This document shows, in pieces, positions 6,180 through 24,024 of a stretch of 31,325 bases of DNA; the first letter of the stretch is position 1, and each line of letters opens with the position of its first letter. The stretch covers positions 1-31,325 of the IMG/VR virus record IMGVR_UViG_3300045996_000489. One strand, given 5' to 3'. A program made the position numbers and the translations under genes. The notes beneath the pieces are model-generated. The model was not told the origin of the DNA. It searched no databases and saw nothing but the letters and a program-made list of their open reading frames with translations. The DNA is from a virus.

Positions 6180-7430
6180 CTACCTTCGGCCCCGCAGGGA
6201 AAACATCGAGGGGAGGAGAGACATCCCCCCAACCGGCTGCATATTCGGCTTGGGTGCAGGTGGAGGAGGAGGGGCCAGCGGGGTATCTAGGATAGCAACG
6301 GGATCTCCCGGCCCCACCAGCTTCGCCAACTCCGCCATATCGCTATTCCTCAACTGAACGCAGCCCTGTGTAGTGGTTTTCCAACTTGTGTCGTGCCCCT
6401 TTTGCCACTCTTTTATGTCCTGCGCATTAGGCTCATCAGCCCCAGAATTTCGGTACTTCCAGCCGTGGAATCCGTAATACTGATCTTTCTCGCCGGGATG
6501 TACGTCTTTCGCAAAGCTAATGAACCCTGGTCCGTAATACCACTCAAAGTTGGCGTCCAAATTTTCCATCACCCTATACTGCCCACGGGGAGTTGGCGTC
6601 TTGGCGTTGCCTATGTAAACCGAATACTCTCGCAAAACCTCACCCTTGGGGCCACGAACGACTATTTTTTTGTCCGGGATACTCACAACGACGGTATTCC
6701 CTGACCGCCTTTCTGGCTTCAGCATTGGTGAATGTGGGTAGTTAAGTGCTTTGCTGACATTCGACACCGTTGCCTTCGCCTGCGGCTTCGGGGTAGCCGA
6801 GGTCGCCCGCGCGGGGGCCTTCGCTGACGGCGCAGCACCAGCCAGAGCATGGGGGAGCGATTTTGCCACATCCATCCCAACTGCGTGATATACATCACCC
6901 ACTGGTTTCTGCATGACTGCCGGAATATCCGCAGGGTTTAGCGGTGGGATCGATGGCGCATCAGGCAAAACGATTGGCTGGTCGGGTGTCTCTGTAGTTG
7001 GAATTGCCGGTGGCTTAAACGGACGCGGAGGCAGTTTGATCGGGGCGTCCGTCACTTGTCCACCAATCTCTGATCCAATAGAACTACGCGGGAGTGGTTC
7101 GGGTATCGGAGCAGGCGGGAACTCGAACGGCTTCTCGGCGCTAGCGGGCGGGAGTGGGCTTGGTGTATACGGACGCGAAAGCCGTGACTCCACAGGCGAC
7201 TGGTGATAGGCGAGAGTGTCGGATTTCCCAGTAATGGCTACCGAGTATGGCGAAAAGTCGTCCGACTTGGTGATTTCCTGTTGTCTGGGAAGTGGTCCGT
7301 CAGCCTGTGGACTGTCCAGCGTTGACGAAACGGGCGCGCTCCAATACGGAACTGGATCAGCATTGGCTGATACCGTGACTGGATCGGTCTTGATTCGAAG
7401 GCGTTCGCCTGCGGTGATATAGGGCCTCAT
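6180..7430 (-). CDS. YkuD-type L,D-transpeptidase domain protein in the virion module
   Basis: 416 aa from the ATG that overlaps the upstream stop (ATGA at 7427-7430); an upstream in-frame extension exists but lacks support. Residues 1-240 are a Pro/Ser/Ala-rich, probably disordered arm without a signal peptide. Residues about 245-382 form a YkuD domain: a strand start (NTVVVSIPDKKIVV), TPTPRGQYRV, a His-Gly (YGFHGWKYRNS, His322) and the catalytic Cys in TTTQGCVQLRNSD (Cys357). The Arg usually following Gly-Cys-Val/Ile is Gln here, with an Arg two residues later. YkuD enzymes form or exchange 3-3 cross-links in peptidoglycan or attach proteins to it. Lying between the hub-like protein and the fibre, it is likely virion-borne and acts on the wall during entry. 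It is not a normal endolysin. Confidence 0.85.
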   Translation of the reverse strand: MRPYITAGERLRIKTDPVTVSANADPVPYWSAPVSSTLDSPQADGPLPRQQEITKSDDFSPYSVAITGKSDTLAYHQSPVESRLSRPYTPSPLPPASAEKPFEFPPAPIPEPLPRSSIGSEIGGQVTDAPIKLPPRPFKPPAIPTTETPDQPIVLPDAPSIPPLNPADIPAVMQKPVGDVYHAVGMDVAKSLPHALAGAAPSAKAPARATSATPKPQAKATVSNVSKALNYPHSPMLKPERRSGNTVVVSIPDKKIVVRGPKGEVLREYSVYIGNAKTPTPRGQYRVMENLDANFEWYYGPGFISFAKDVHPGEKDQYYGFHGWKYRNSGADEPNAQDIKEWQKGHDTSWKTTTQGCVQLRNSDMAELAKLVGPGDPVAILDTPLAPPPPPAPKPNMQPVGGMSLLPSMFSLRGRR

Positions 7431-9418
7431 CTCTGAACCACCCACTCGTCCGAATAGAACACCTCTAAGCCCGCCAGCTTGAACCACGCATCTGCCACAC
7501 CGTTATTGCTGAACTCCAGGAAAGCCCCCTCACTCTGCACGTCACAAAGTACGAGTGGAAACTTCCCAGGAGCCGTACTCGCAGTGATCGTTGCGAGCAC
7601 ATGCGACCTCGTGTTGTCCAGCGTGTACACGGTCGGGATGATTGACCCGTTGCCGGTGATCCGGGGGCGGAATCCATGGATCTGCCGAGGCTCCGGTGAA
7701 GCGGGGGGAAGCCCGGCAGTGCGGTACCGACTGAGGTATCCCGCGCCGTTGTCGTTGTAAATGCTCACGTCACCAGCGGCAGCGCTCTTGGACCTGAAGA
7801 CGGCGCCTGCGGAATACCTGCTCAGGTAGATTTCGAACACCTTCGCCGTCGGGTTCCAAACATTTGCGATGGCCCCAATGTTGGCGAATGCGGTCGAGTC
7901 CCACAGCCCGCAGTAGTTCACGCGATTCCACGCGCGACCCTGCGAGTAATCCCATGCCAGCATTGCATTTGCCGAGGATGCACCGTCGAGAGGGACCTTA
8001 ACGAGCACGATCTTAGCAGCGGGAAAATCGAGGACCTGGACCGTGCCTTGTGCTGCGGCCCAGTTTATGCGGGACCAGTCAGCAGAGTTGAGGTAGGAGA
8101 TGGGCAGCGTGCCGTAAGCGCCCCCCTCGAAGACGTACAAGCCGTCAGTGGCGGCGACAAAGGCATAGCCGAGCGACGAATTGGCGCAAACGCCGAACAC
8201 CGACGGCGTTCCAATGCGCCCATCCACTTGCTGTGGGGGCGCCCACGATACAGGAAGACTGGTATTGTCGCTGCACGCATACGTCCAGCCAGGCCCGACG
8301 AGATACAGCGAGCCACGGAGGACGAATCCCGTCGTGATCTGCCGCTTTTCTTCTAGCTGAATCAGGTGGTTTGCGAGAGTGATCCATTGGGGCGCATTCT
8401 TGTTCGACACGAACACTCCGCTCGTGCCATCGGAGAGCGTGGCGAAATAGACCGCTCTGTCCGAGTATCCCAAAACCTTGAACGGCGAAAACGGCCCGTT
8501 TCCGCTGGCGTCCTGTGAGTACAACCCGAAATAGTTCTTAGCTGCGGTGACAGCCTCAACGGAGGACGATGATCCCAAGATGGCGTCGTTTAGGTTGATG
8601 TCCGGGAATGTCACTGTGCCCGCTCCGCCACCCGTGACGGCCGCCGTGCAACCCGGAACGAAGAAGTACCGCGCGTTGTTCTGCACTGTGGTCATCAGCA
8701 ACGCGGCGGAAACGAAGTTCGTCGGCCATGTTCCGCTAGGGGTAATCTGGACCCGCAGCGTCTTATTGCCAGAAGCCGTGACGCTGCCGGCCACGAGATC
8801 GGCGATCGATCCCGACGAACCGAAGCCAGCCGTAACCGGACAAGGCCGCGTCTCGTATCCCGTGCGCGTCGTGAAAACGACGGCGAGCTTGTGGACACCC
8901 TTAGAAACCGTGCCAGCCGCAGGCTCAGACGTCGAGAACGACATCGCCGTGCTCGCCATTGGGGGCTCGAAGGCTTTATCCGCAGAAGCGGGAGCGGTCA
9001 CACCATCCCAGATACGGGCTTGTGCCGCCCCTGCCCCTGCGGAGGTGATCTGCGCGAAGAGGAGGCGGGCGCCGAGCGAGGCGAAATCCGCAGTCTCGGC
9101 AGTGCTGCCAGTGAGGATGTCTACCTCGGTCCCCGCCGTGAGGTTGCGGAGCGTTACGATGCCGTCAGTCTTATTGAAGTAGGCAATCCGATTCGCCGCC
9201 GCGAGAATCCAGTTGAACATCGACGTGATGCCCTTGTTTGGATTCCATGCCGCGCCGAACCCACGTCGTCCCTGAACCTGTGCGTCCAACTGGATCTCGA
9301 CGTTGTGCGCGAGTTCCGCGAAGTCTTCAATGCCGGATTTATCAAATTGATCCGGGAGACTAGCCGCCCCCCGGATCTTGCTTAGAACAAAGCGCTGGCA
9401 CTCAGCGATAAGCGACAC
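7427..9418 (-). CDS. Large structural protein, probable tail hub/nozzle
   Basis: 663 aa from a GTG at 9418 that has AGGAG (9425-9429) 6 bases upstream; a longer frame to 9556 would run deep into the upstream gene. The N-terminal 45 residues are helical (LIAECQRFVLSKIRG). The rest is rich in short beta strands with repeated aromatic/Gly turns (GVFVSNKNAPQWITL, LVGPGWTYACSD, GLYVFEGGAYGTLPISYL) of the kind seen in beta-propeller tail hubs such as P22 gp10 and T7 gp12. It ends in a beta domain (DAWFKLAGLEVFYSDEW). It overlaps the transpeptidase gene by 4 bases. Fold and role are inferred from pattern and gene order. Confidence 0.8.
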   Translation of the reverse strand: MSLIAECQRFVLSKIRGAASLPDQFDKSGIEDFAELAHNVEIQLDAQVQGRRGFGAAWNPNKGITSMFNWILAAANRIAYFNKTDGIVTLRNLTAGTEVDILTGSTAETADFASLGARLLFAQITSAGAGAAQARIWDGVTAPASADKAFEPPMASTAMSFSTSEPAAGTVSKGVHKLAVVFTTRTGYETRPCPVTAGFGSSGSIADLVAGSVTASGNKTLRVQITPSGTWPTNFVSAALLMTTVQNNARYFFVPGCTAAVTGGGAGTVTFPDINLNDAILGSSSSVEAVTAAKNYFGLYSQDASGNGPFSPFKVLGYSDRAVYFATLSDGTSGVFVSNKNAPQWITLANHLIQLEEKRQITTGFVLRGSLYLVGPGWTYACSDNTSLPVSWAPPQQVDGRIGTPSVFGVCANSSLGYAFVAATDGLYVFEGGAYGTLPISYLNSADWSRINWAAAQGTVQVLDFPAAKIVLVKVPLDGASSANAMLAWDYSQGRAWNRVNYCGLWDSTAFANIGAIANVWNPTAKVFEIYLSRYSAGAVFRSKSAAAGDVSIYNDNGAGYLSRYRTAGLPPASPEPRQIHGFRPRITGNGSIIPTVYTLDNTRSHVLATITASTAPGKFPLVLCDVQSEGAFLEFSNNGVADAWFKLAGLEVFYSDEWVVQR

Positions 9419-11372: not shown

Positions 11373-11569
11373 GGGTTTATGCTCCTCAAGTACGCTCCGA
11401 GTTCAATCAGAGACATCACGCCGCCACAATTGGTCACCCTCACGTTGCCGCGAGCGCGGATAACCGTCAAGATGAGTTCCAATTGCTCTATCCCAATGCA
11501 GCAATTGGCGAAATTGATGTGCGGCTCCTCATCTGCGACGACGGACGCCACTATTGACGGCGAGAGCAT
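11369..11569 (-). CDS. Small hypothetical protein, 66 aa
   Basis: 66 aa. Its ATG begins directly after the TAG of the upstream gene, and its stop overlaps the downstream ATG (ATGA), so it is locked into the operon. The composition is hydrophobic with Ile/Val strands (LELILTVIRARGNVRVTN) and a C-terminal helix (MSLIELGAYLRSI). Three Cys (two adjacent) are present, but no clear metal site. No transmembrane helix is evident. Function unknown. Confidence 0.65.
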   Translation of the reverse strand: MLSPSIVASVVADEEPHINFANCCIGIEQLELILTVIRARGNVRVTNCGGVMSLIELGAYLRSINP

Positions 11570-12424
11570 CTACTTCGTCGCCCCCTGTTGCCCCGCCTTC
11601 TCTGCCCGCATCTTGGCGTTATTCGCCTCGATCCGCGCCTTCTGATCGCGTTGGAACGCGAACACGCCGGGATCGACGTCTTCCGTCACTTCCATGCCGA
11701 TGTCGCGGTAGAACTTCACGAGGTTCTGATCGCAGTGTTTGCACACCGTCGCCATCGAGTTGATGTCCTCGTAGCACGCCGGGCACTTCTTGAGCAGCAC
11801 CGTGTCGATCTTCTTGTACCACTCGCGGTCTTCCGACCCGAGCCAGCGGAGCGCCCGACGGTGGTCGTTGGTGATGAACTCCCGCTTGCCGGTGATCCAG
11901 TACTCGTCGGCCTTCATGACGAGCCAGCGGAAGTACTCCGTCTGGACAGCGACGAGTTGGTCCAGTTCGAACCGCGTGGGCTTCTCACCCTGGAGCACCA
12001 TGATCCCCGGCTTCGCACCGCTGGCGTTCCCCGGGGCGTCCTGCGCCCACTGGCGCAACAGGTCTTCCGCCACGCCGTAACAGTGGACCGGCGACTGTTG
12101 CATGTCGTAGGCGTTCGGGTCGGTCGGGTCATTGCCCGCGCCGGCAGCCTTCGACAGATCCCGCGTCAGGGTGAAGGTGTCGTATACCTTCAGCAGCGCG
12201 TAGCTACCCTTCGGGACTGCGGGAATCCGATACTCCTTGCGCCCGCCACCGTGGTTCATGATGTGGCGCAACTCCTCCGGGAAGATCGAACAGAGGGTGA
12301 CGTTGTTCGGGATGTAAGGCCGACCACCCGTAAACGGGTTGGGCATGAATACGTCGGCTTCGACGGTGATGCAGTTTTCCAGCGGGATCGAGGAAGCGGG
12401 CTGCTCCAAGACGTTTGTGCTCAT
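11570..12424 (-). CDS. Zinc-ribbon-containing head-module protein
   Basis: 284 aa, start overlapping the upstream stop (ATGA). Residues 1-205 are mixed alpha/beta with several Trp/Tyr-rich helices (VQTEYFRWLVMKADEYWITG). A zinc ribbon follows: Cys214-P-A-Cys217, ten residues, then Cys228-K-H-Cys231. The C-terminus is a charged helix (DQKARIEANNAKMRAEKAG). It lies between the capsid gene and the neck-like gene and is probably a virion or assembly protein. A small zinc ribbon near the C-terminus could bind DNA or another protein. No named family is recognised. Confidence 0.75.
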   Translation of the reverse strand: MSTNVLEQPASSIPLENCITVEADVFMPNPFTGGRPYIPNNVTLCSIFPEELRHIMNHGGGRKEYRIPAVPKGSYALLKVYDTFTLTRDLSKAAGAGNDPTDPNAYDMQQSPVHCYGVAEDLLRQWAQDAPGNASGAKPGIMVLQGEKPTRFELDQLVAVQTEYFRWLVMKADEYWITGKREFITNDHRRALRWLGSEDREWYKKIDTVLLKKCPACYEDINSMATVCKHCDQNLVKFYRDIGMEVTEDVDPGVFAFQRDQKARIEANNAKMRAEKAGQQGATK

Positions 12425-13089
12425 AAAGTGACCAGATTCTCTCCAGATTGATGTTTGGGCCTGAACATGACCGCCGGCAGCGACACATTGCCGTTGCGCT
12501 TGCCGGGGTCGGGACTGACTGGCAGGGCATCCGAGATCCGCTCGCGGATGTTCTCCTGCCGCTTCTGATCTTTCTTCTGCTCCCGCGATTCGAAGGCATT
12601 GGCGATATCGGACGCCTTGATTTCACGGGATCGCTGACGAGCGCGGATGAGCGCCATGTTGAAAATCTCGCCGGGAACCGTCCCGGGCGGCATGGCGACC
12701 GTGCGCGTCTCTGTCTCTACCGGCGCCCACGACCCGTTCTTCGGGTAGGGCAGCCGCGTGCCAAAGGTTTCCAGCCACTCGCGCGGCGACATCGGGTACT
12801 GCAACGAGCAGAGCACCCACTGATCCTCCATCGTTGGGTCCGTCTTGCGAATCTCCCACCGAGGCTCGGCAATGACCAATCGCCCCGCCACGCATTCCGC
12901 AGAATGCACCGAGACGTTCAGCCCGCACGGACAGCGGTAGTCCCATACCGGCGTGCCATCATCGTTCATCGAACGCATGGCCCGCTTGAAGTCTGCCGAC
13001 TCGCTGTGAATCCATCGGTACAGCGGATTCTGCCCTAACTCCGCGAGGAGCATTCGGTTCAGCTTGGAGATGTGTCGTTCGGTCGTCAT
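12421..13089 (-). CDS. Head-module protein with Cys/His motif
   Basis: 222 aa, starting 5 bases after the stop of the sponge-like gene and overlapping the next gene by 4 bases. The N-terminal helix (ISKLNRMLLAELGQNPLYRW) is followed by a compact Cys/His cluster at residues 53-66 (Cys53, Cys55, His62, Cys66) that may hold a metal. The middle part is Trp/Pro-rich (QWVLCSLQYPMSPREWLETFG). The C-terminal third is a charged helix with many Arg/Lys/Glu (residues about 150-195). It shares Cys motifs and operon position with the downstream 284-aa protein, and the two may act together. Function unknown. Confidence 0.75.
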   Translation of the reverse strand: MTTERHISKLNRMLLAELGQNPLYRWIHSESADFKRAMRSMNDDGTPVWDYRCPCGLNVSVHSAECVAGRLVIAEPRWEIRKTDPTMEDQWVLCSLQYPMSPREWLETFGTRLPYPKNGSWAPVETETRTVAMPPGTVPGEIFNMALIRARQRSREIKASDIANAFESREQKKDQKRQENIRERISDALPVSPDPGKRNGNVSLPAVMFRPKHQSGENLVTL

Positions 13090-13094
13090 TGAGT

Positions 13095-13472
13095 TTACTT
13101 CGCGTGCGTGCCCTCAACGCCGCGCTTGATCCGCGCCACAGTGCGCCGCTGGAGCCACATTAGGGCATCTTCGCAGTGCGTGAGCGCGATGGCGTTCTCG
13201 CGGCAGGAGAACGGCCCCGCCTGGAACGACCGCAGCCGGTCGATCACGATGGCGAGCAGCGCCTCCTGCGTGATACCGTTGACGCCGAATTCTTTGATCG
13301 GGCCGTTCTGGAACGAGATGCGCAGCGCATTCAGCGCCTTTTCCCCGTCAACGGCGCAGGTCGAAACCTCATACTCGTGGTTCGCTCCGCCCGCTCCCGG
13401 CTCATCCAAAACAGCTACATGCAACTGCACGGCTTGGTCGCCGCTTACAATGTGATCCGATAATGTTCTCAA
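13095..13472 (-). CDS. Acb2/Tad1-like cyclic-nucleotide sponge (anti-CBASS/anti-Thoeris candidate)
   Basis: 125 aa from a TTG at 13472, chosen because AAAGGTGG lies 7 bases upstream; the upstream frame extension overlaps the capsid gene and a hairpin. Residues 17-56 are beta-like (NHEYEVSTCAVD, LRISFQNG). The conserved block I-S-F-Q-N-G-P-I-K-E-x-G-V-N-G-I-T (52-68) follows, then a helical hairpin (EALLAIVIDRLRSFQAG, FSCRENAIALTHCEDALMWL) and a closing RRTVARIKRGVEGTH. I recognise this layout from small phage proteins assigned to the Acb2/Tad1 hairpin group, which sequester immune cyclic nucleotides (CBASS cyclic oligonucleotides, Thoeris gcADPR). The family call is from memory, and ligand choice cannot be read from sequence. 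It sits between the capsid gene and the next head gene. Confidence 0.7.
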   Translation of the reverse strand: MRTLSDHIVSGDQAVQLHVAVLDEPGAGGANHEYEVSTCAVDGEKALNALRISFQNGPIKEFGVNGITQEALLAIVIDRLRSFQAGPFSCRENAIALTHCEDALMWLQRRTVARIKRGVEGTHAK

Positions 13473-13494
13473 AGCAAAACCACCTTTCAAAATC

Positions 13495-13526
13495 AGGGGC
13501 GGCCCCGGAGGATTTGGACCGCCCCT
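13495..13526 (-). terminator. GC-rich hairpin between capsid and sponge-like genes
   Basis: AGGGGCGG (13495-13502) pairs with CCGCCCCT (13519-13526), 8 bp, with possible further pairing inside. On the transcribed strand it is followed by GATTTTG, a short U-rich run. It lies 14 bases after the capsid stop and 23 bases before the TTG start. It could be a leaky terminator that lowers expression after the abundant capsid message, or a 3'-end stabiliser. Confidence 0.45.
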
Positions 13527-13539
13527 GCCCTTACGGGGA

Positions 13540-14904
13540 TTACCAGCCAGTTGGCACAGCCAAACTGTCAATTACTCCATCGGCCCCCGGATCAAGAGAT
13601 CCGAAGTCATACGACGCCTCGACAAAGAACTCCGTGAACGACTGCACCGTACCATCGGTGCCGCGTCCCTCGAAGAACTTGCTGCCCGAGTTCGCGTCGG
13701 TGTAGAAGCGAATCGGATGGAGCTCGGCGCGGAACCACTTCGGAAGGTTCAGGAAGTCGATCTTCGCCTTGTCCTGCCGCTTAGAGATCAGGAGCGGGAT
13801 GCCGCAGAACCGCACCTCGTCCTTGTAGCCGTGGTTCGTCGGCAGCAGATCCTTGCCCTTGCCAGCGTCGGTCGCGCCCCGGTCGATGAACACGTTGTTG
13901 ATCGTGGTCCCGAGCTTCTGGATCGCCGCCCGCTGCGCCATGTGCGTGACGCCGAGCAGATCGTCGCCGGAGCTGATCGTGCGCCGCTGGATGAGTTGGT
14001 CGATCATCAACTGGCCGTGATCGAAGGTGACACCGCCGGACGACCCGTTGACACGCGAGCAGTTGATCTGCGGGACGCTCGAACGGAGCACGCCGAGGTA
14101 GTAGTCCGTGCCGGTGATGGAGTGGACATAGCCCATTCCGTGCCGGTAGGAGTCGCCGCCGATGCCGCCCGCAACCGTCTTGTCGGGCCAGGTAGAGGCG
14201 AACGAGGTCGGGGTCGCCGGGCCGTAGGACTCCAGACCCACGATCGTAATCACGTTGGTCTGCGAGTTCATGCCGGTGACGGCCTGATCCACCGTGACGG
14301 TCTTCGCCGTGTAGTCGATGGAGTTGATGCGGACATTGGTCATCGCCGCAGTGAGGTTGACGGACAGATCCGACTTCCACACATCCACGACCATGCCCTC
14401 GCGCAGGAGGTTGACGCCGAGCGTGTCGCTGGCGCCGGCGAACGTCAGAACGGTGGTCGTCTGGGCGCTCGAAGCATTCGTGAGCACGCCCGTGCCGTTC
14501 TGGTGCAGCGCGATATCGTCATCGATCATCGCGTCATCGATCGCGTGCGCCACGGTTTCGCTGAGCACGTCGATGGTGGACTGAGCGGAACTGCCGCTCG
14601 TGTTCTGCTGCTCGCGGGTCACCCGGTACCCACGGTAGGTCGTGATGTAACCCGCCGTGAAGTTGCCGAGCACCATGCCGGTGCCCTTGCCGAGCGAAGC
14701 GCTGTTGGCGCTGGCCTTCCGGAGCGAACCGCCACGGAAGCGCATGTACGGAGCGCGGTACAGATACCGCGAAACGTTCTTGACCTTCGAAGACTTCTTG
14801 ACGCGAGCAGAAAGCTGGTCGGACTCCTCGAACAGGAGCTGCATTTCCTTTTCGACCACTTCCAACTGCGCCGGGGTGATATCGGTAATGGCTGGACTTG
14901 CCAC
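13540..14904 (-). CDS. Major capsid protein
   Basis: 454 aa from a GTG at 14904 with GAGGA 8 bases upstream. The N-terminal helical region (ITPAQLEVVEKEMQLLFEES) precedes an HK97-fold-like body: an arm with RAPYMRFRGGSLRKA, then helix-rich and strand-rich parts (ETVAHAIDDAMIDDDIAL, LMIDQLIQRRTISSGDD, FIDRGATD) and a C-terminal beta part (FFEGRGTDGTVQSFTEFFVEA). Residues about 165-215 look like a small beta insertion domain (VVDVWKSDLSVN, KTVTVDQAVTG). Position after portal and scaffold-like genes, and length, support the coat assignment. HK97-fold membership is an inference from gene order and pattern. Confidence 0.85.
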   Translation of the reverse strand: MASPAITDITPAQLEVVEKEMQLLFEESDQLSARVKKSSKVKNVSRYLYRAPYMRFRGGSLRKASANSASLGKGTGMVLGNFTAGYITTYRGYRVTREQQNTSGSSAQSTIDVLSETVAHAIDDAMIDDDIALHQNGTGVLTNASSAQTTTVLTFAGASDTLGVNLLREGMVVDVWKSDLSVNLTAAMTNVRINSIDYTAKTVTVDQAVTGMNSQTNVITIVGLESYGPATPTSFASTWPDKTVAGGIGGDSYRHGMGYVHSITGTDYYLGVLRSSVPQINCSRVNGSSGGVTFDHGQLMIDQLIQRRTISSGDDLLGVTHMAQRAAIQKLGTTINNVFIDRGATDAGKGKDLLPTNHGYKDEVRFCGIPLLISKRQDKAKIDFLNLPKWFRAELHPIRFYTDANSGSKFFEGRGTDGTVQSFTEFFVEASYDFGSLDPGADGVIDSLAVPTGW

Positions 14905-14935
14905 GGTATAAATCCTCTATGAAAACAACTGGTTT

Positions 14936-16393
14936 CTAGTTAGGGCTGAGAGCCCCCGCAAGACGTCGCTGCATGTATTCCGCGCGATCTTCTCCGGGCT
15001 TCCGCGTAATCGTCACACTCGGGACAATGGATTGCGGGGGCGCCTGCCCTCCGTTCACTGCCGGTGCGGTTTGCGCGGCTGCTGCGGATGCCGTTGCGTG
15101 CAGGGCTCCGTTCTGGCGCTCTACTCCTGTCGCCAGTTCCTGTAAAACGGTGCGATAGCGAGCCTGAATAGCCTGCCGAGCGGTCTGCTGGTAGACTTGA
15201 ACCGGCGCCGTGCGCGCATCTGCGCCACGGGCGGTTCGGGCTGCTGACAACTTGAAATTGAAGTCACGTGTTGCTACGTGATTTTTGCGGACAGCTTCCT
15301 GGATCTCGCGCTTGAAGTCGTTGACGGCAGCGCGGAACACCCGCTCCGACATGCCCGCCTTTACGCTTGCAAGCGCCTTTTCGCAATCCCTGGTGAGATT
15401 CTGGTCGATGGTGCTGAAGATGTCGTTCTCGACGGCCTTCTGCGCTTCGCTCTGCTGCTTCGTCCGCCAGGCGCTCAGGCGGCGCTCTTCCTCCGCCACC
15501 GCCGCCTCGCGTTCTGCCAGAGGATCAGCCGCGCCCGGAGGGGCTAACTTGCTGTCATCTCGAAACTTGCCGAACATGTCCGCTTCAACAAACCGGGCCG
15601 CGTTTATTAGGCTTTCCCGCTCGGCGGTGTCGCCTGTCTTAGTGGCCCGGGTGTAAAGCCCATCAAGATACTGCTGGAGCAGAGGATTAAAAACAGCGCG
15701 ATGCAGGGCGACCGCCTGCTGCGCAAGTTGCTGATTGCCGGTGCGCTCGGCATGGGAGAATGCCTGATCGAGCACCTGCGGCACGTTGGCCAGCACCTTG
15801 TCCACGCCCTCGCGGAAATTGCCCGTCGCGTCCGGCCCGAACCAGTTCAGCGCAAACGACGCGGGGTTCGTCACGAACTCCTGTGTCATCGCGTTCCAGT
15901 CGGAGTGCGCCCGGTGATAATCCTTGATCTGCTCCGGAGTCGGCATAAAGCCGAGTCCGCCCTTGTTTTCGCCGGTCGCCGGATCGAAGTTCGGCGCTTC
16001 TTTCAGGACGCGCTCGGACTTGTAGATCGCCAGCAAGTTGCGCCCGCGATTCGTCCGCATGAAGGCGTCTTCGACTTGCTTCGGCAGTCCGTTGGCCTTC
16101 AGGAGCGCGGAGAGTTCGGCTGCCTCCTTGTCCTCTGCTGGCGCAGCGGGCGCGGCAGCTTGGGGAGGCGCAGGCTCCTCATCTTCAAACGTCAGCTCGG
16201 GCTCATCCTCAAACGTCAGTTCCGGCTCGGTCGCCACGGGAGCGGCTGGCGTAGCTACAGGCTCCGGAGTTGACGGGGCGGCCGGTTCAGGGGTTGTGGC
16301 GGCGGGGGTGGAAACGGCAGATTCTGTTGGCGCGGACGTGGGCATAGCGCTCACTGCGCTGCTCATTCGTTCGGCCATCGATGCGACGTCCAT
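14936..16393 (-). CDS. Scaffold-like head assembly protein
   Basis: 485 aa, ATG with AGGAG 5 bases upstream. Residues 1-90 are Ala/Pro/Thr/Glu-rich and disordered, with an eight-residue acidic repeat (ELTFEDEP, ELTFEDEE) encoded by a 24-bp direct repeat at 16179-16226. The remaining part is long helix with many Gln/Glu/Arg (AEREAAVAEEERRLSAWRTKQQ), and the C-terminal end is basic (ITRKPGEDRAEYMQRRLAG). High helix content, acidic/disordered N-terminus, basic C-terminus and place between portal and coat are all typical of scaffolding proteins. No protease motif is seen. Confidence 0.75.
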   Translation of the reverse strand: MDVASMAERMSSAVSAMPTSAPTESAVSTPAATTPEPAAPSTPEPVATPAAPVATEPELTFEDEPELTFEDEEPAPPQAAAPAAPAEDKEAAELSALLKANGLPKQVEDAFMRTNRGRNLLAIYKSERVLKEAPNFDPATGENKGGLGFMPTPEQIKDYHRAHSDWNAMTQEFVTNPASFALNWFGPDATGNFREGVDKVLANVPQVLDQAFSHAERTGNQQLAQQAVALHRAVFNPLLQQYLDGLYTRATKTGDTAERESLINAARFVEADMFGKFRDDSKLAPPGAADPLAEREAAVAEEERRLSAWRTKQQSEAQKAVENDIFSTIDQNLTRDCEKALASVKAGMSERVFRAAVNDFKREIQEAVRKNHVATRDFNFKLSAARTARGADARTAPVQVYQQTARQAIQARYRTVLQELATGVERQNGALHATASAAAAQTAPAVNGGQAPPQSIVPSVTITRKPGEDRAEYMQRRLAGALSPN

Positions 16394-16533
16394 CGGTTCT
16401 CCTGTTCACTCCACTTCTGCGGAGTGAGCCCAACTACGACAACAGTCGAAGTTGCATCTACTACAAACGTAGATCATGGCCAAACCAAAAGCAAGCGGAA
16501 ATGTTTTGGAGAGAGTAAGTTGGGCGGGCCCAG
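16394..16533 (-). promoter_or_regulatory. Control region before the scaffold/capsid unit
   Basis: Minus-strand boxes TTTCCG (16496-16501) and CATGAT (16473-16478) are 17 bases apart, and the perfect dyad CTAC-AAAC-GTAG (16461-16472) directly abuts the -10-like box. A hairpin TCACTCC/GGAGTGA (16406-16427) lies in the leader just before the AGGAG ribosome site and could limit its access. The portal terminator-like hairpin is at the other end of the gap. This suggests separate transcription of the scaffold and capsid genes. Confidence 0.5.
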
Positions 16534-16535
16534 CT
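16518..16535 (-). terminator. Hairpin overlapping the portal stop codon
   Basis: On the minus strand AGCTGGG (16529-16535) pairs with CCCAACT (16518-16524), 7 bp including one G-T, with a 4-base loop. Only a pyrimidine-rich TACTCTCTCC follows, not a T-run. The next promoter-like region begins just beyond it. Possible terminator of the portal unit. Confidence 0.35.
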
Positions 16536-19071
16536 ACTGAATCGTCCCCGGAGGCGGGCCGACAGGCATCGCGTTAGGGGGCGGTGCGGTCATGCCCGCC
16601 TGATTCGGTGGAGGGGGAGCGACGATGCCCTTCTCGTCAGGTGGCGGGGCATTCGGTCCTTCTGGCGGTGGAGGCCCGCCCGGTCCACCTTCAGGTGGCA
16701 TTGGCGGAGGCGGCGGGTTCGCAATGAGCATCCACGCCTGCGTGTAGGCGAGAACATTCTCAAACCCCCCAGGCGACTGATCTGGCAGTAGCCCCTGCTC
16801 GGCTTCCCGCCCCTTGTCGCTTACCAGCCAATCGCGGAGCACGGCCACGGCGAATGGAGCGTCGAATATGGTTGTATTCGGCGCGATCGATGGCTGCGGT
16901 GGAGGCGGCGGACCAGGAGGCAGCGGATTGCCCATCGGGTCGAACTCCTGCATGGGCGCCTGCTCCATCGGCTCGCCCTTGACCAACTGCCCGATGATGT
17001 CGAGTAACCGTTCGCGAGCGGCGAGTCCTGGCACCTGCCAATCCGGCAAGCCTACGGCATCCTGCAACTGCTCCACGTTCGCGGGCAGCGGGTTGCCAGC
17101 GGGGTCGGTGAGCCCCAACAGGGGCCACGCCTGCGGAGGACGGGACAGCATGGACTCCACCTGTTCCTGCCTTTGAGCCCACGTCATCGGCATCGCTTCT
17201 TCGCACTCGATCTCGATCCCGCCCTGCCCGAGTTCCCAGATGCCGTCCAACTCTTCCAGTTCAATCACGCCACCGCGATTCATGACGAGCTTCCCGTTGG
17301 AGTACTGCGCGAGTAGCCGAATCCCGTTCTGGTACGTGTTGCTCCAGAAGTCCCGCATGTAGTTCCACGGCACGTTCAGTTGCATGAGCGACTGATTACG
17401 CCGGATTTTCGCAACGCCGACCGCCTCGTCGGCATCCCCTCCGCCGTAGATCGCCGGCATGATCCCGACGTTCTCTCGGTTCTTTTCGATGTAGAACTCC
17501 ATGAACTTCAGGAGCGATTCGTTCAACTCGCTGCCGGAGATGCGGAAGAAACTCTGCGAGAGTTGACTACCCACGCCCCGCTTGCCTTCCAGGAACTCGC
17601 CGGTCTGGACGGCCCGGTTGCGGAGGTAATCCGGGTCCACGATGTCGGGATCGAAGAACGTGATCGGGTTCGACTTCTCAGCCTGTTGAATCAGCATATT
17701 CAGGCAGTCGTTCACCACATCGACGCCCTGAATATAGTCGTCAAACACCGCATCCCGGTAGATGAAGTCGCCGGTATCCGGCTGACAGACAGTCCACCGC
17801 TCGGGGATGGAGGCTCCCCGGATATCCGCGAGTTTCCCACCGACGTAGATCAGGTGCAACCCCTTCGGGTACTTCGCCTGCAACTGCTCTCGGACATCCC
17901 CCGACTTGTCGTCATCGGCCGACATCGCCTCCAGCATTCCGGGGGATAGGAAGTACTGCCCGAAAGATGCCAGCGACTTACGCTCAAACGGCTCGCCCGT
18001 GGGGGAGGACAGCGTATTGGTCGTTCGCCGGATCTCAGCGGTACTGGCACCGCCCGCCATCGCTCCGGACGTTGTGTCCGTCAACAGGTGCCCACGCAAC
18101 TCCGTCCGGAACTGCGCCTCTGGCGAATTGTCGCCCTGCTTCGGAGCTGGCGCGTAGGCGCGGACCAGTTCATAGCGATTGACGAGGTATTCGTACCACA
18201 GCCACGGGCAGTGCTCCAGGTCCGCGATGTAGTACGGCGTTTTGACCGTCGCGCCCGTCGCAAGCTGAAGCTCAACTGCGCCGTTGGCATAGCGCTGCAC
18301 CGATGTCTGCACCAGGCCCGGAACCATCTCCGGTTCGCGGTAGTCTTCCGGCCCAAGCGGAAACTCGCATTGCGCGCACCGCTGCGTCTGTTGCGCCGTC
18401 ATCAGCGGATTTTCCGTCCCGCATTTGGCGCATACGAAATACGCCTCGCCAGCAGGGACCAGTTTCGTCTCGATCTTCGGGACTTCCGTGACGCCGTACT
18501 TCTTCTCGTCGGCGACGAAGTTGACGTAGCCGAACGTGGTACCGTTCACCGCCAGCGAATACGCGAGGTACCGCTGAAGGTTATCGGCTTTCCATGAGTT
18601 TCGTAGGTAGGAAACAGCGCGATCTCCGATGCGCGAGAGCCTGATTTGGTGGTCATCCCCGACCGTGCGGGGTTCACACTTTGCGTTTGGCGACCTGACG
18701 CCCAGGACACCGCACCATTTCCGAACATCCCCACGAAACAGCGGCAAGATGTTGTCATACATCTCGTCCTGCTGACCTTGCTGCGGAGAGAATGGAGCCA
18801 TTCCCCCACCGCTCACCGGGCGATAGTCCACAGAGCCATCCGGCAACTTGACCATCGTCAAATACTGCATTCCCCGGTAGTACAGATTGTTTCGACGGAT
18901 GCGCGCGAACACCTTTGACTGCTCCGGGTCGGACTCCGCCCGGATCTTCGTCTGAATGAGGTTCGCCAGCGCAACATTGACCTTGCTGTCGGGCTTGAGG
19001 ATCTGCGCCTTCGTGATCGCCTGCCGCGTCACGTCAAGGATGCCGGGGGCGTTCGGTGGTTGTGGGCTCAT
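16534..19071 (-). CDS. Portal protein with zinc-ribbon insertion
   Basis: 845 aa, start overlapping the upstream stop by 4 bases. The helical N-terminus leads to a body with portal-like features: FARIRRNNLYYRGMQYL, a substrate-facing middle with DAVFDDYIQGVDVVNDCLN, a long helical stem (ELNESLLKFMEFYIEKNRENVG) and NRGGVIELEELDGIWE. An unusual zinc ribbon is inserted at residues 214-235 (Cys-x2-Cys, 14 residues, Cys-x2-Cys). The last 60 residues are Pro/Gly-rich. It is long for a portal (P22 gp1 is 725 aa). Position between terminase and scaffold/coat supports the call. Confidence 0.85.
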   Translation of the reverse strand: MSPQPPNAPGILDVTRQAITKAQILKPDSKVNVALANLIQTKIRAESDPEQSKVFARIRRNNLYYRGMQYLTMVKLPDGSVDYRPVSGGGMAPFSPQQGQQDEMYDNILPLFRGDVRKWCGVLGVRSPNAKCEPRTVGDDHQIRLSRIGDRAVSYLRNSWKADNLQRYLAYSLAVNGTTFGYVNFVADEKKYGVTEVPKIETKLVPAGEAYFVCAKCGTENPLMTAQQTQRCAQCEFPLGPEDYREPEMVPGLVQTSVQRYANGAVELQLATGATVKTPYYIADLEHCPWLWYEYLVNRYELVRAYAPAPKQGDNSPEAQFRTELRGHLLTDTTSGAMAGGASTAEIRRTTNTLSSPTGEPFERKSLASFGQYFLSPGMLEAMSADDDKSGDVREQLQAKYPKGLHLIYVGGKLADIRGASIPERWTVCQPDTGDFIYRDAVFDDYIQGVDVVNDCLNMLIQQAEKSNPITFFDPDIVDPDYLRNRAVQTGEFLEGKRGVGSQLSQSFFRISGSELNESLLKFMEFYIEKNRENVGIMPAIYGGGDADEAVGVAKIRRNQSLMQLNVPWNYMRDFWSNTYQNGIRLLAQYSNGKLVMNRGGVIELEELDGIWELGQGGIEIECEEAMPMTWAQRQEQVESMLSRPPQAWPLLGLTDPAGNPLPANVEQLQDAVGLPDWQVPGLAARERLLDIIGQLVKGEPMEQAPMQEFDPMGNPLPPGPPPPPQPSIAPNTTIFDAPFAVAVLRDWLVSDKGREAEQGLLPDQSPGGFENVLAYTQAWMLIANPPPPPMPPEGGPGGPPPPEGPNAPPPDEKGIVAPPPPNQAGMTAPPPNAMPVGPPPGTIQ

Positions 19072-19954: not shown

Positions 19955-21535
19955 CTACGGCGTAAACTTCACGACGTTGGCAGATCCAGCGTCGTACCAG
20001 AGGCCCTTTGAACCGGGAGTGGAGGACGGCAGATCCGGCATGAAGATAGCCCCCGTGGTCGCGTCGATTTCGAGTGCCAATCCCGAACCACCGACCGCCG
20101 TGATCTTCAGTCGGTTCGTTGAGGCATCATTCGTGATCTGCCACTCCTTCTGCCCATTGTTCGAAGTGTTGTCGAGACTGATAATCACTCCACCGCCCGG
20201 GAGCGGCTTGAAGCGGGCGCCGCCATTCAGCGTGTTTCCTTGGGCATCTGGGACCGCATCGATCAGCCAGTCCGGATCGCTCACTTTATTGAAGCCGATG
20301 CGATTCCAGTTGTGCATGATGCCGTAGTTGTCGAAGCCCTTGACCCCGACCCCATTCGCCGGCCATGGCCCGTTCGTGTCCGGGTCGCCCGTTTCCCGAG
20401 TCAAGGGGAGAAACATATTCCCCGCGATCGATCCAGCCGCGACAACCGGCGTTCCAATGGGGTCCGTAAACCCCGTGGAGTTGATTGCCACCTTGAAGTT
20501 ATTCGCGTCCACGGCTTCGCTGACTTGCCGAAGGCCATTGAGCACGCTCCACTCGCCCGTGAACCCCGAGAGGTAGGCGTACTCGCCAGCCAGCGTGTAG
20601 CCGCTGCCAGCGGCCGTAATGGTTGTGCTGGCCCCTGCGGCAGCCGCGCTGATTGACCACGAGTCCGAATGCACCGTGCCGACGGCGATGTTCTTACAGG
20701 TATTCCCGCCGGGGAAGTTGTGGTTTCCCGCAACTGCCTTCCAGTACCACTGAACATTCGACCCGGCAGCACCCCAGCCCTGAATAGCAAAGTCCTCGAA
20801 TCCGCACGAATCGGCGTACTGGACAAGCACGCCATAGCCGCCGCTGGCATCAGCACCGATGATGTCGAAATCCTTGAAGTAGTTCCGTGCTACGTCGAAA
20901 ACTCCCGCGCCGTACGTCGCCGCTCCAACCACCAACCCGAACGAGGAGTTCCCCGACATCAACATGTTGACAGCGGTCCACGTATTCTCGCCGCAGCCCA
21001 TGGAAACGCCGCCTGCGAGATCCTGGTACGCCTGCACGCGCATCCCGACGCCCGTGCATCCGTAGATGCCGATCTGCGCCCCGTGGGACCGCCAGGCATG
21101 ATCCACCTTCAGCCCATCGCCGGCAACGTTGTTCCCGTCGAGCATCAGGTTGCGGATGCGAACCCCGCCAATCGGCCCGCGAATACGCATCATCAGGCCA
21201 CCAGCAGAGCCAATCCACTTGATCTTCGGACCCTTCGGGGGAGCCTCCCCGAAGTCGTTGAACATCCACCCGCCAGAACCCTCGATCTCGATGTTGTTCA
21301 GCGTGGAGTCCGTAGTGCTCGTCCCGTCGCCGATATTCCACGTTCCCGAGATCGCGTAGGACACGGAAGGCGTCGGGATGTAGACTCTGCCGCCCAGGGC
21401 AAAGGCCGCTGCCGTCGCCAAGTCGAACGCGGCGAGATCGTCGGTCGTCCCGTCGCCAACGGCTCCGTAGGCGCGGACATCGTGGAATGGCGCCCGCTTT
21501 ACCTGTGTCGGCCAATCGGTTTTCGTAGTCGCCAT
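19955..21535 (-). CDS. Tailspike with pectate-lyase-like beta-helix
   Basis: 526 aa, ATG with GAGG 8 bases upstream. Residues about 18-60 carry the classic start of the Pectate_lyase_3 fold (HDVRAYGAVGDGTTDDLAAF). Residues 60-290 are short Gly/Asn-rich rungs of a right-handed beta-helix (GVRIRNLMLDGNNVAGDGL, QIGIYGCTGVGMRVQ, CGFEDFAIQGWG). Around residues 300-375 there is a small beta domain similar to those in the fibre and neck-like proteins. The C-terminus is a beta-rich tip (NRLKITAVGGSGLALEIDA). Such proteins bind and often cleave surface polysaccharide; catalytic residues cannot be assigned. It follows the 104-aa adhesin-like gene with a 3-base gap. Confidence 0.85.
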   Translation of the reverse strand: MATTKTDWPTQVKRAPFHDVRAYGAVGDGTTDDLAAFDLATAAAFALGGRVYIPTPSVSYAISGTWNIGDGTSTTDSTLNNIEIEGSGGWMFNDFGEAPPKGPKIKWIGSAGGLMMRIRGPIGGVRIRNLMLDGNNVAGDGLKVDHAWRSHGAQIGIYGCTGVGMRVQAYQDLAGGVSMGCGENTWTAVNMLMSGNSSFGLVVGAATYGAGVFDVARNYFKDFDIIGADASGGYGVLVQYADSCGFEDFAIQGWGAAGSNVQWYWKAVAGNHNFPGGNTCKNIAVGTVHSDSWSISAAAAGASTTITAAGSGYTLAGEYAYLSGFTGEWSVLNGLRQVSEAVDANNFKVAINSTGFTDPIGTPVVAAGSIAGNMFLPLTRETGDPDTNGPWPANGVGVKGFDNYGIMHNWNRIGFNKVSDPDWLIDAVPDAQGNTLNGGARFKPLPGGGVIISLDNTSNNGQKEWQITNDASTNRLKITAVGGSGLALEIDATTGAIFMPDLPSSTPGSKGLWYDAGSANVVKFTP

Positions 21536-21853: not shown

Positions 21854-21940
21854 AGGCCCGCACGCGGGCGCTCGTGCTGGCTGCTCAGGGCTCCCTAATG
21901 GGAGTTTACCTTAAAACGACGGCTGTAGGAAATGTTTTAA
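21854..21940 (-). promoter_or_regulatory. Control element before the tailspike cassette
   Basis: TTAAAAC (21911-21917) and GTTTTAA (21934-21940) form an inverted repeat around CGAC-GGCT-GTAG (21917-21928), one base off the CTAC dyad. This copies the layout at 10095-10127. A -35-like TTGATC (21955-21960) lies 17 bases before a weak -10 (AAACAT). The element begins at the terminase stop codon. Two hairpins follow in the leader (CTCCC-TAAT-GGGAG 21891-21904 and GCCCGC-AC-GCGGGC 21856-21869). Confidence 0.5.
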
Positions 21941-24024
21941 GACTGCGGGCCGGCGATCAACCCCTTAACCCGAGCGCGGGCCATCCGGCCTTGCCGAATC
22001 ACGTGAATGGGCTTGAGTTTGGCCGCGTTGCGGTCCTTCCACGCGGACTCGATACGGCGGTTGACCCAAACCAGATCGGCGGTGTCGTAGCCCGGGTTCC
22101 GCTGCTGCGCCTCCGCGACCTTCCGGCGCCGCAGAGCCTCGAAAGGTTCCGGCATGGACTGGCCCCGGAATGTCATCAGGAGATACCGCAAAGAGTCTAG
22201 GCTATCCAGCCCTGAAAAATGCTTTCGGCTCACATCCTCCGGATTCAGGTCGTCATGCTGTGCCTTCGGAATTGACGCGATCAGGCGGGGGCATCCGAGC
22301 TGCTGCGTAGAATCGGGGCGACCGTGCTGGTCGAGCGGCGGGCCGACAACCTGGAGTTTCGGCAGTACCTCGCGCTTCTGTTTGAATAGATTGAGGTATG
22401 CTCCGTATGCCTCCAGCCCCTTCTCGTAGGCAATCTTCGAAGCCAAGTTCGGATCGAAAATGTCCTTGATATCCGGCATCGTCTGCCGCCACCGCATCAT
22501 CGCCCGAACCAACTGCCAGCCAACGACGCGGTTGTCACGCATTCGGCGGATTGTGATGCCCATGCGCTGCTGCGATCGAATCCTCTGGAAAATCGCATCG
22601 GCCTCGCCGGAAGCGGTGGAATGCCCCTCCGCCTCCATCTGATCTTTCAGTTTGTCCACCATCAGGTCTGGGACGTGAACCATATTTGGCCCCAAGACGC
22701 GGGCTATGCCCCGGGCAATCAATTCCGCTACGGATCGGTCGTCCTGCCGGTGCCCGTAGGCGTCGTGCGACAACCCCATCGAGATCATGGGTGTCTCCAG
22801 CCCCGCCAAGATGCTTTTGGTTCGGCGGCCGACCTCTTCGCCTATAATGTCGGGCTCCGTCTCGCTGACCACCAGCTCATCCGTCACCCAAAACTGGTCA
22901 GTCTCTTGATCGTGGCAGCCCCAAACGGTCGAGCATTCGTGCGAATAGCCGTAGTCCATCGCCATTGTGCGCCACCACCACGGCTGAATCCGGTTTCTCG
23001 CGATATTGAACGGGACAACGTGATTGGCCTCTGGGGGCTCGCCGGGCTTCGGTCCCCTTGGCCTCCATGAGGCGAAAAATTCGCCCGACATCGCGTGCCA
23101 ATCCCCGAATAAGTACGCCCGCCGCTCCTCTTCATCGAGCGTCATCAGGCTGGCGATGTATTCTTTGTTGGACAGAGCCGCCGGATTGTCCTTGATGGAG
23201 GAGAACAAGAAAACCCGCGTAGACTCGATCACCTCTCCGGGGACGAACGGGTTCTCAAATTTTTCGATGATCGGCGTACCCGGGGGGATAATATTACCGT
23301 GCTCGTCAGTCGGTTCTACGTAGCGGTCCAGCACCCACCCGTGACCAGGGCCTCCGGGGTTGCACGTCGAGAGCATCTGGGCGCGCATCTCCGGGTACAC
23401 TGACCGGCAGCACGACTTCAGCATCTTCAGGCGCTTGATGTCCGGGATCTGCGTCACCTCTTCAAGCAGAAACCGGACAATGTTCATGCCCTGATACTTC
23501 ATGTAGGCGTTGTCTTCATCGTAGTGCCCGCAGAAGATCATCGCCCCGCCCGGGAACTCGAAACGGTTCTTGCCCTCCTTGAAGTCCCCGCCAATCAGCC
23601 CGTAGATCTCCTTCGCCTCACGCACCCAGTCAAGCAGATCCGTTGCGTTTCGCCGAATGACGCAGCCGAGGTATTTGGGGTGGTAGATGTAGCTGCGGTT
23701 AACGAGAATAGGGTTCCCGTCTTTGTCGTAATCCGGGAATGGGCATGCGCAGGGTAGCGCCTTGTGTGCAGGGCAATCGTCGGCATGGGCATTCCCTTTG
23801 ATAAGGAAATAGATCCCCGAAATCGTCTTGCCGCCAGCCTTTGCGCCGCCGATACAAATCTCGTGCTCATTGCGCAGTAGGGTCTGCACCTGCTTCGGCC
23901 AAAGCTGCCGCACTGGCTGATTCGCGGCCTTATCACCAGCCCTCTGGCGCAGGCGCTCGAACTCCTCCGGCGTCAGCACCATCCCGACGGGCTTTTTGAC
24001 TTCGGCTTGTTTTTTGGCTGCCAT
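21937..24024 (-). CDS. terL: Terminase large subunit
   Basis: 695 aa. The ATPase domain shows Walker A GGAKAGGKT (residues 59-67), Walker B FLLEE (185-189) and a coupling motif around STCNPGGPGHGW (219-230). The C-terminal nuclease domain begins around MAMDYGYSH (Asp357), with a second acidic site near SHDAYGH (Asp421). Between Walker A and B is an insertion with Cys84, His87, Cys92 and Cys94 that may hold a metal. It uses ATP to drive DNA into the portal and cuts concatemers. It starts 8 bases after the stop of a 59-aa overlapping ORF, with a poor ribosome site, so translation is probably coupled. Confidence 0.95.
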   Translation of the reverse strand: MAAKKQAEVKKPVGMVLTPEEFERLRQRAGDKAANQPVRQLWPKQVQTLLRNEHEICIGGAKAGGKTISGIYFLIKGNAHADDCPAHKALPCACPFPDYDKDGNPILVNRSYIYHPKYLGCVIRRNATDLLDWVREAKEIYGLIGGDFKEGKNRFEFPGGAMIFCGHYDEDNAYMKYQGMNIVRFLLEEVTQIPDIKRLKMLKSCCRSVYPEMRAQMLSTCNPGGPGHGWVLDRYVEPTDEHGNIIPPGTPIIEKFENPFVPGEVIESTRVFLFSSIKDNPAALSNKEYIASLMTLDEEERRAYLFGDWHAMSGEFFASWRPRGPKPGEPPEANHVVPFNIARNRIQPWWWRTMAMDYGYSHECSTVWGCHDQETDQFWVTDELVVSETEPDIIGEEVGRRTKSILAGLETPMISMGLSHDAYGHRQDDRSVAELIARGIARVLGPNMVHVPDLMVDKLKDQMEAEGHSTASGEADAIFQRIRSQQRMGITIRRMRDNRVVGWQLVRAMMRWRQTMPDIKDIFDPNLASKIAYEKGLEAYGAYLNLFKQKREVLPKLQVVGPPLDQHGRPDSTQQLGCPRLIASIPKAQHDDLNPEDVSRKHFSGLDSLDSLRYLLMTFRGQSMPEPFEALRRRKVAEAQQRNPGYDTADLVWVNRRIESAWKDRNAAKLKPIHVIRQGRMARARVKGLIAGPQS

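Follow-up and report, generated by a model that had tools for sequence, protein, structure and literature searches.

The window, a 31,325-nt stretch of viral DNA, carries on its minus strand a gene of the Tad1 family of sponge proteins (13095..13472), recognised from its translation, the Pfam family PF24729, phrog_2428, matches to Tad1 in the PDB and an AF2 model searched with Foldseek. The open reading frame is real and runs from 13472 down to 13095; the initial annotation had placed it correctly without naming the strand, and the plus-strand frame carries stop codons. A 125-aa product with the block FQNGPIKEFGVNG and an RGVEGTH ending had been described, and the translation bears this out in length and motif, its C-terminus reading RGVEGTHAK. 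The TTG proposed as the initiation codon is the right start, since relatives start at the corresponding residue, with ATG or GTG, and a good Shine-Dalgarno sequence, AAAGGTGG (13480..13487, minus strand, as read from the sequence), lies 7 nt upstream. A longer mechanical reading frame of 158 aa, beginning at 13571, overlaps the upstream gene, and relatives lend it no support.

The stop codon of that upstream gene ends at 13540, 67 nt before the tad1 TTG. Fold calculation places in this gap the hairpin noted earlier in front of the gene, a GC-rich stem of 12 bp (13494..13527, minus strand, read from 13527 to 13494) followed by a weak U-run (AUUUUG). The folding energy of the region, -34.7 kcal/mol over 80 nt, is only moderately unusual (z -2.17, with 7 of 200 shuffles folding as well), and the hairpin was not detected by a terminator scan; it is not a canonical terminator, and may act as a partial terminator or an RNA-processing element. 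Across 11500-16600 no match to a sigma-70-type promoter was found. On the other side of tad1 lies a gene of 222 aa (12421..13089, minus strand) with no family above noise, whose ATG stands 5 nt past the tad1 stop and which is likely to belong to the same transcription unit.

Upstream, the gene run has the layout of a packaging and head module. A terminase large subunit (TerL; 21937..24024, minus strand) is identified by phrog_979 (E 2.9e-29), although it is distant: the best-listed phage records show TerL identities of 23-28% by tblastn. It is followed on the same strand by an 845-aa portal candidate (16534..19071), named from gene order and size with no homologue, by a 485-aa scaffold-like ORF rich in Ala, Pro and Glu (14936..16393), named from gene order and composition with no family match, and by a 454-aa candidate for the major capsid protein (13540..14904), named from gene order only; neither the portal nor the scaffold candidate has detectable relatives. 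The initial annotation put the sponge directly behind the capsid gene. As a statement of gene order this stands, and because the order runs from TerL through a large ORF and an Ala/Pro/Glu-rich ORF to the 454-aa ORF, it is a reasonable call on a candidate capsid. The label itself found no backing: no homologue of the 454-aa ORF was found in PHROGs, Pfam, the PDB, phage records or viral and genome contigs, its single-sequence AF2 model, built with no alignment, is unusable (pLDDT 31), and hhalign comparison with four phage proteins, capsids or capsid candidates, gave no signal.

Much of the remaining window is similarly orphaned, and besides TerL, Tad1 and one YkuD domain the scanned genes are without a clear functional family match. 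The YkuD domain, an L,D-transpeptidase (6180-7487, minus strand; E 8e-15), is unusual phage cargo; its neighbours may be tail genes by position, and the host cell wall is a conceivable target of its product. A 526-aa ORF lying between TerL and the portal candidate (19955-21535, minus strand) weakly resembles pectate lyases (E 0.004, which falls short of the cut-off) and may encode an oddly placed tail spike.

The 125-aa protein is homologous over its full length to Tad1 (Thoeris anti-defence 1), both its sequence and its predicted monomer fold being those of Tad1. Pfam places it in the Acb2/Tad1 hairpin family (PF24729) with 29 bits over residues 70-109 (13146-13265), just above the gathering cut-off of 27 bits, whereas PHROG_2428 matches nearly its full length (E 5e-35). 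Searching PDB sequences with phmmer returned CbTad1 (E 1.7e-24, covering residues 22-125), with CmTad1 (7.6e-23) and phiKZ gp184 (3e-15) as the other best matches; a profile of 56 sequences strengthened all three (5e-36, 2e-31 and 1e-21, respectively) and found nothing beyond them in the PDB at E 0.01. The AF2 model built from the 56-sequence alignment (pLDDT 89.3, pTM 0.81) has N-terminal strands at residues 17-21, 33-38 and 49-54, followed by the helical hairpin that the initial annotation had perceived in the sequence, with helices at 69-85 and 91-117. The stretch corresponding approximately to the hairpin domain (residues 69-109; 13146..13268, minus strand) takes in the first helix, a FQAGPFSCRENA loop and the start of the second. 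In a Foldseek search of the PDB all 20 significant matches were Tad1 chains, the best being CbTad1 (E 1.8e-11, TM 0.86), and the first non-significant match stood at E 0.2. Membership of the Acb2/Tad1 sponge group, as originally suggested, is thus supported by profile and fold, and can be refined to Tad1 because the N-terminal β part of Tad1 is present and no Acb2 structure was matched.

An Acb2-type sponge, restricted to CBASS nucleotides and sharing only the hairpin domain, is scarcely credible for this locus. The Pfam model does span both Acb2 and Tad1, whose hairpin domains are related, but Acb2 is a protein of 94 aa made of one short and two long helices (PMC12043709), shorter and all-helical, and lacks the β strands that, together with the whole-length match, belong to Tad1. 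An Acb2 identity was accordingly rejected for this 125-aa protein, no Acb2 chain appearing among the PDB sequence or fold matches shown.

Comparison with characterised sponges extends the likeness to the ligand-binding loops. CbTad1, from a Clostridium botulinum prophage (PDB 7uav/7uaw/8smd/8kbe-8kbh), is of similar length and has the same N-terminal β part and two-helix hairpin, although its host and genetic context are unrelated and the N-terminal 20 residues diverge. The two proteins are identical in 52 of 106 aligned columns (~49%), including FQAGPFS, RENA, R109, R110 and R114 (PDB-chain numbering); FQ-G, FQAGPFS-RENA and the R110/R114 block are found in both, and the ligand-loop block FQAGPFS-REN is the same but for one residue. 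Across the 56 aligned sequences F54, Q55, G57, G66, F83, Q84, N93, R110 and R114 are invariant, and the ligand-pocket residues among them (F83, N93, R110 and R114) are identical in CbTad1. Mutants of CbTad1 at F82 and N92 lose gcADPR binding, and these positions presumably correspond to F83 and N93 here. CmTad1 (PDB 8kbb-8kbd, with cA3/cAAG) shares family and fold (TM 0.72-0.80) but is only 32-38% identical in structural alignment.

According to a review, gcADPR and cyclic dinucleotides occupy the same pockets of Tad1, cyclic trinucleotides have sites of their own at trimer interfaces, and Tad1 homologues retain gcADPR and trinucleotide binding (PMC12043709). The ligands reported for Tad1 are our best guess for the 125-aa protein too, and its likeliest predicted role is to sequester gcADPR, the Thoeris signal, and the cyclic tri- and dinucleotides of CBASS. 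A Tad1-type immune-signal sponge is, we are confident, the best explanation of the gene. By analogy with known Tad1 biology, its protomers would assemble into dimers and hexamers, in which loops and helices would bind gcADPR and some cyclic dinucleotides in pockets at the protomer interface, while cyclic trinucleotides would occupy separate sites at trimer interfaces; ThsA of Thoeris and the effectors of CBASS would then remain inactive, and the phage would escape abortive infection.

Tad1 is an already known kind of protein; what stands out is its location inside particle-building genes. All five genes, tad1 and those for the capsid candidate, scaffold-like protein, portal candidate and TerL, point the same way, and tad1 is for this reason most likely carried on the same transcripts as the other four. 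Read from this co-directional run, Tad1 would probably be made together with the virion proteins, late in infection, a timing suggested by position. The initial annotation proposed that the dose of the sponge may be linked to the capsid message. The layout would allow this, given the co-directional genes, the lack of a sigma-70-type match, the 67-nt gap with its hairpin and the 5-nt gap to the next gene, and the proposal depends on the 454-aa candidate being the capsid. The triggers sensed by staphylococcal and streptococcal Thoeris systems are major capsid proteins (PMC12578639). Production alongside the capsid would therefore supply the sponge just as the alarm is raised, and late production would suit hosts whose Thoeris works in this way. 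Against late timing, most named phages whose context was examined have Tad1 among early or replication genes.

How far this placement is general can be judged from the relatives. A scan of viral contigs found 72 loci encoding one, with 49-78% identity over the 55 aligned. None of the window's virion genes is held in common with these loci, save one TerL at 27%, and tad1 therefore appears to travel independently of them. The converse search of viral contigs, for phages with the window's virion genes, served as a test of conserved capsid-tad1 synteny and found no relatives of the capsid candidate, TerL, the portal candidate or the 709-aa and 222-aa ORFs, with a single weak partial match for a 284-aa ORF. 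PHROG scans of selected, hand-picked tad1 neighbours nevertheless placed head or packaging genes beside or very near tad1 on unrelated contigs. The upstream neighbour is a portal whose stop overlaps the tad1 start, with a major head protein two genes on (L012), a portal/adaptor (L017), an adaptor (L034), TerS with a terminase-like gene downstream (L006), TerL with a portal/adaptor downstream (L022 and L066) or TerL immediately adjacent (L064); elsewhere a portal lies downstream with TerL 0.8 kb upstream (L055), a portal lies two small ORFs upstream (L063), or TerL follows 64 bp downstream (L068). At L014 and L016 such genes are slightly farther away, and at five loci (L011, L015, L038, L051 and L069) tad1 sits beside replication, recombination or partition genes. 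Of the named phages, CM1, OLIVR5/IG49, VPHZ6, PE002A and 1706 have Tad1 amid early, replication or otherwise non-head genes, and ABMM1 has it near a baseplate gene.

Close relatives are thus often, not always, inside packaging or head modules. This is a tendency and not an enrichment, because the neighbours were hand-picked and the sole control, in which Tad1 lay within 5 kb of TerL in 11 of the 26 contigs with a phrog_2 match, gave a one-sided KS P of 0.048 when compared with uniform placement on linear contigs, which does not suffice for a claim of enrichment. Nor did neighbour type cluster clearly on the Tad1 tree (42 of 500 shuffles were as low).

Placement among head genes also raises the question of whether the sponge travels in the particle, packaged with the head and injected so as to neutralise signals from the first minutes of infection, as for phiKZ gp184. 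This homologue of the 125-aa protein, from a Pseudomonas phage, is a validated virion protein injected into cells (PMC10449902) and has been described as a Tad1 injected into host cells (PMC13282480); homologues in Lactococcus phage 1706 (orf71), Bacillus CM1 and P59 and Klebsiella phage Eowyn are annotated as structural, and packaging or head modules often house close relatives. The structural annotations were possibly carried over, however, and a position in a head operon is no proof of packaging. Moreover, gp184 has an extra N-terminal part of ~110 residues, which readily suggests itself as a packaging domain: the homology (E 1e-21) is with its C-terminal half, spanning residues 112-226 of 230 and starting at profile position 13. 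Since the 125-aa protein is without this part, packaging is less likely than timing, and we regard a virion-carried sponge as quite unlikely in this phage.

The same adjacency of head genes, here and in relatives, together with the 'structural protein' annotations of homologues, could be read as a sign that the Tad1 fold now serves a different purpose, as a minor capsid protein or an assembly protein that no longer binds signals. We find this very improbable, as the ligand-loop residues are invariant among relatives with unrelated virion genes, and a common capsid-binding role is difficult to square with the occurrence of Tad1 among non-homologous heads.

A signal-binding Tad1 sponge is accordingly the reading we retain, and a well-supported Tad1 is thereby on record for a phage in which hardly any genes can be recognised, extending the sponge to phages whose virion genes have nothing detectable in common. 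If placement in the packaging and head operon is functional, counter-defence would be tied to a Thoeris-triggering capsid or to the particle itself, and a virion-carried or capsid-timed sponge is a possibility. A broader scenario, which we offer tentatively and consider unlikely, is that a branch of Tad1 is spreading among unrelated environmental phages and has settled preferentially inside packaging and head operons, after portal or capsid or between terminase and portal, where the sponge would be made in step with a Thoeris-sensed capsid or loaded into the virion and injected.

Three observations concern individual relatives. The order TerL-Tad1-portal recurs at L022, L055 and L066 with portals from different PHROG families (phrog_156, 1216 and 332). 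Orf71 of Lactococcus phage 1706 (L002, 7872-8225), labelled structural, lies amid mostly unknown or helicase genes, and could be another virion-associated Tad1 or bear a label carried over. Finally, gp131 of the Burkholderia jumbo phage FLC9 (L091, 3374-4390) is a 338-aa protein with a C-terminal Tad1 domain and a long N-terminal extension like that of phiKZ gp184.
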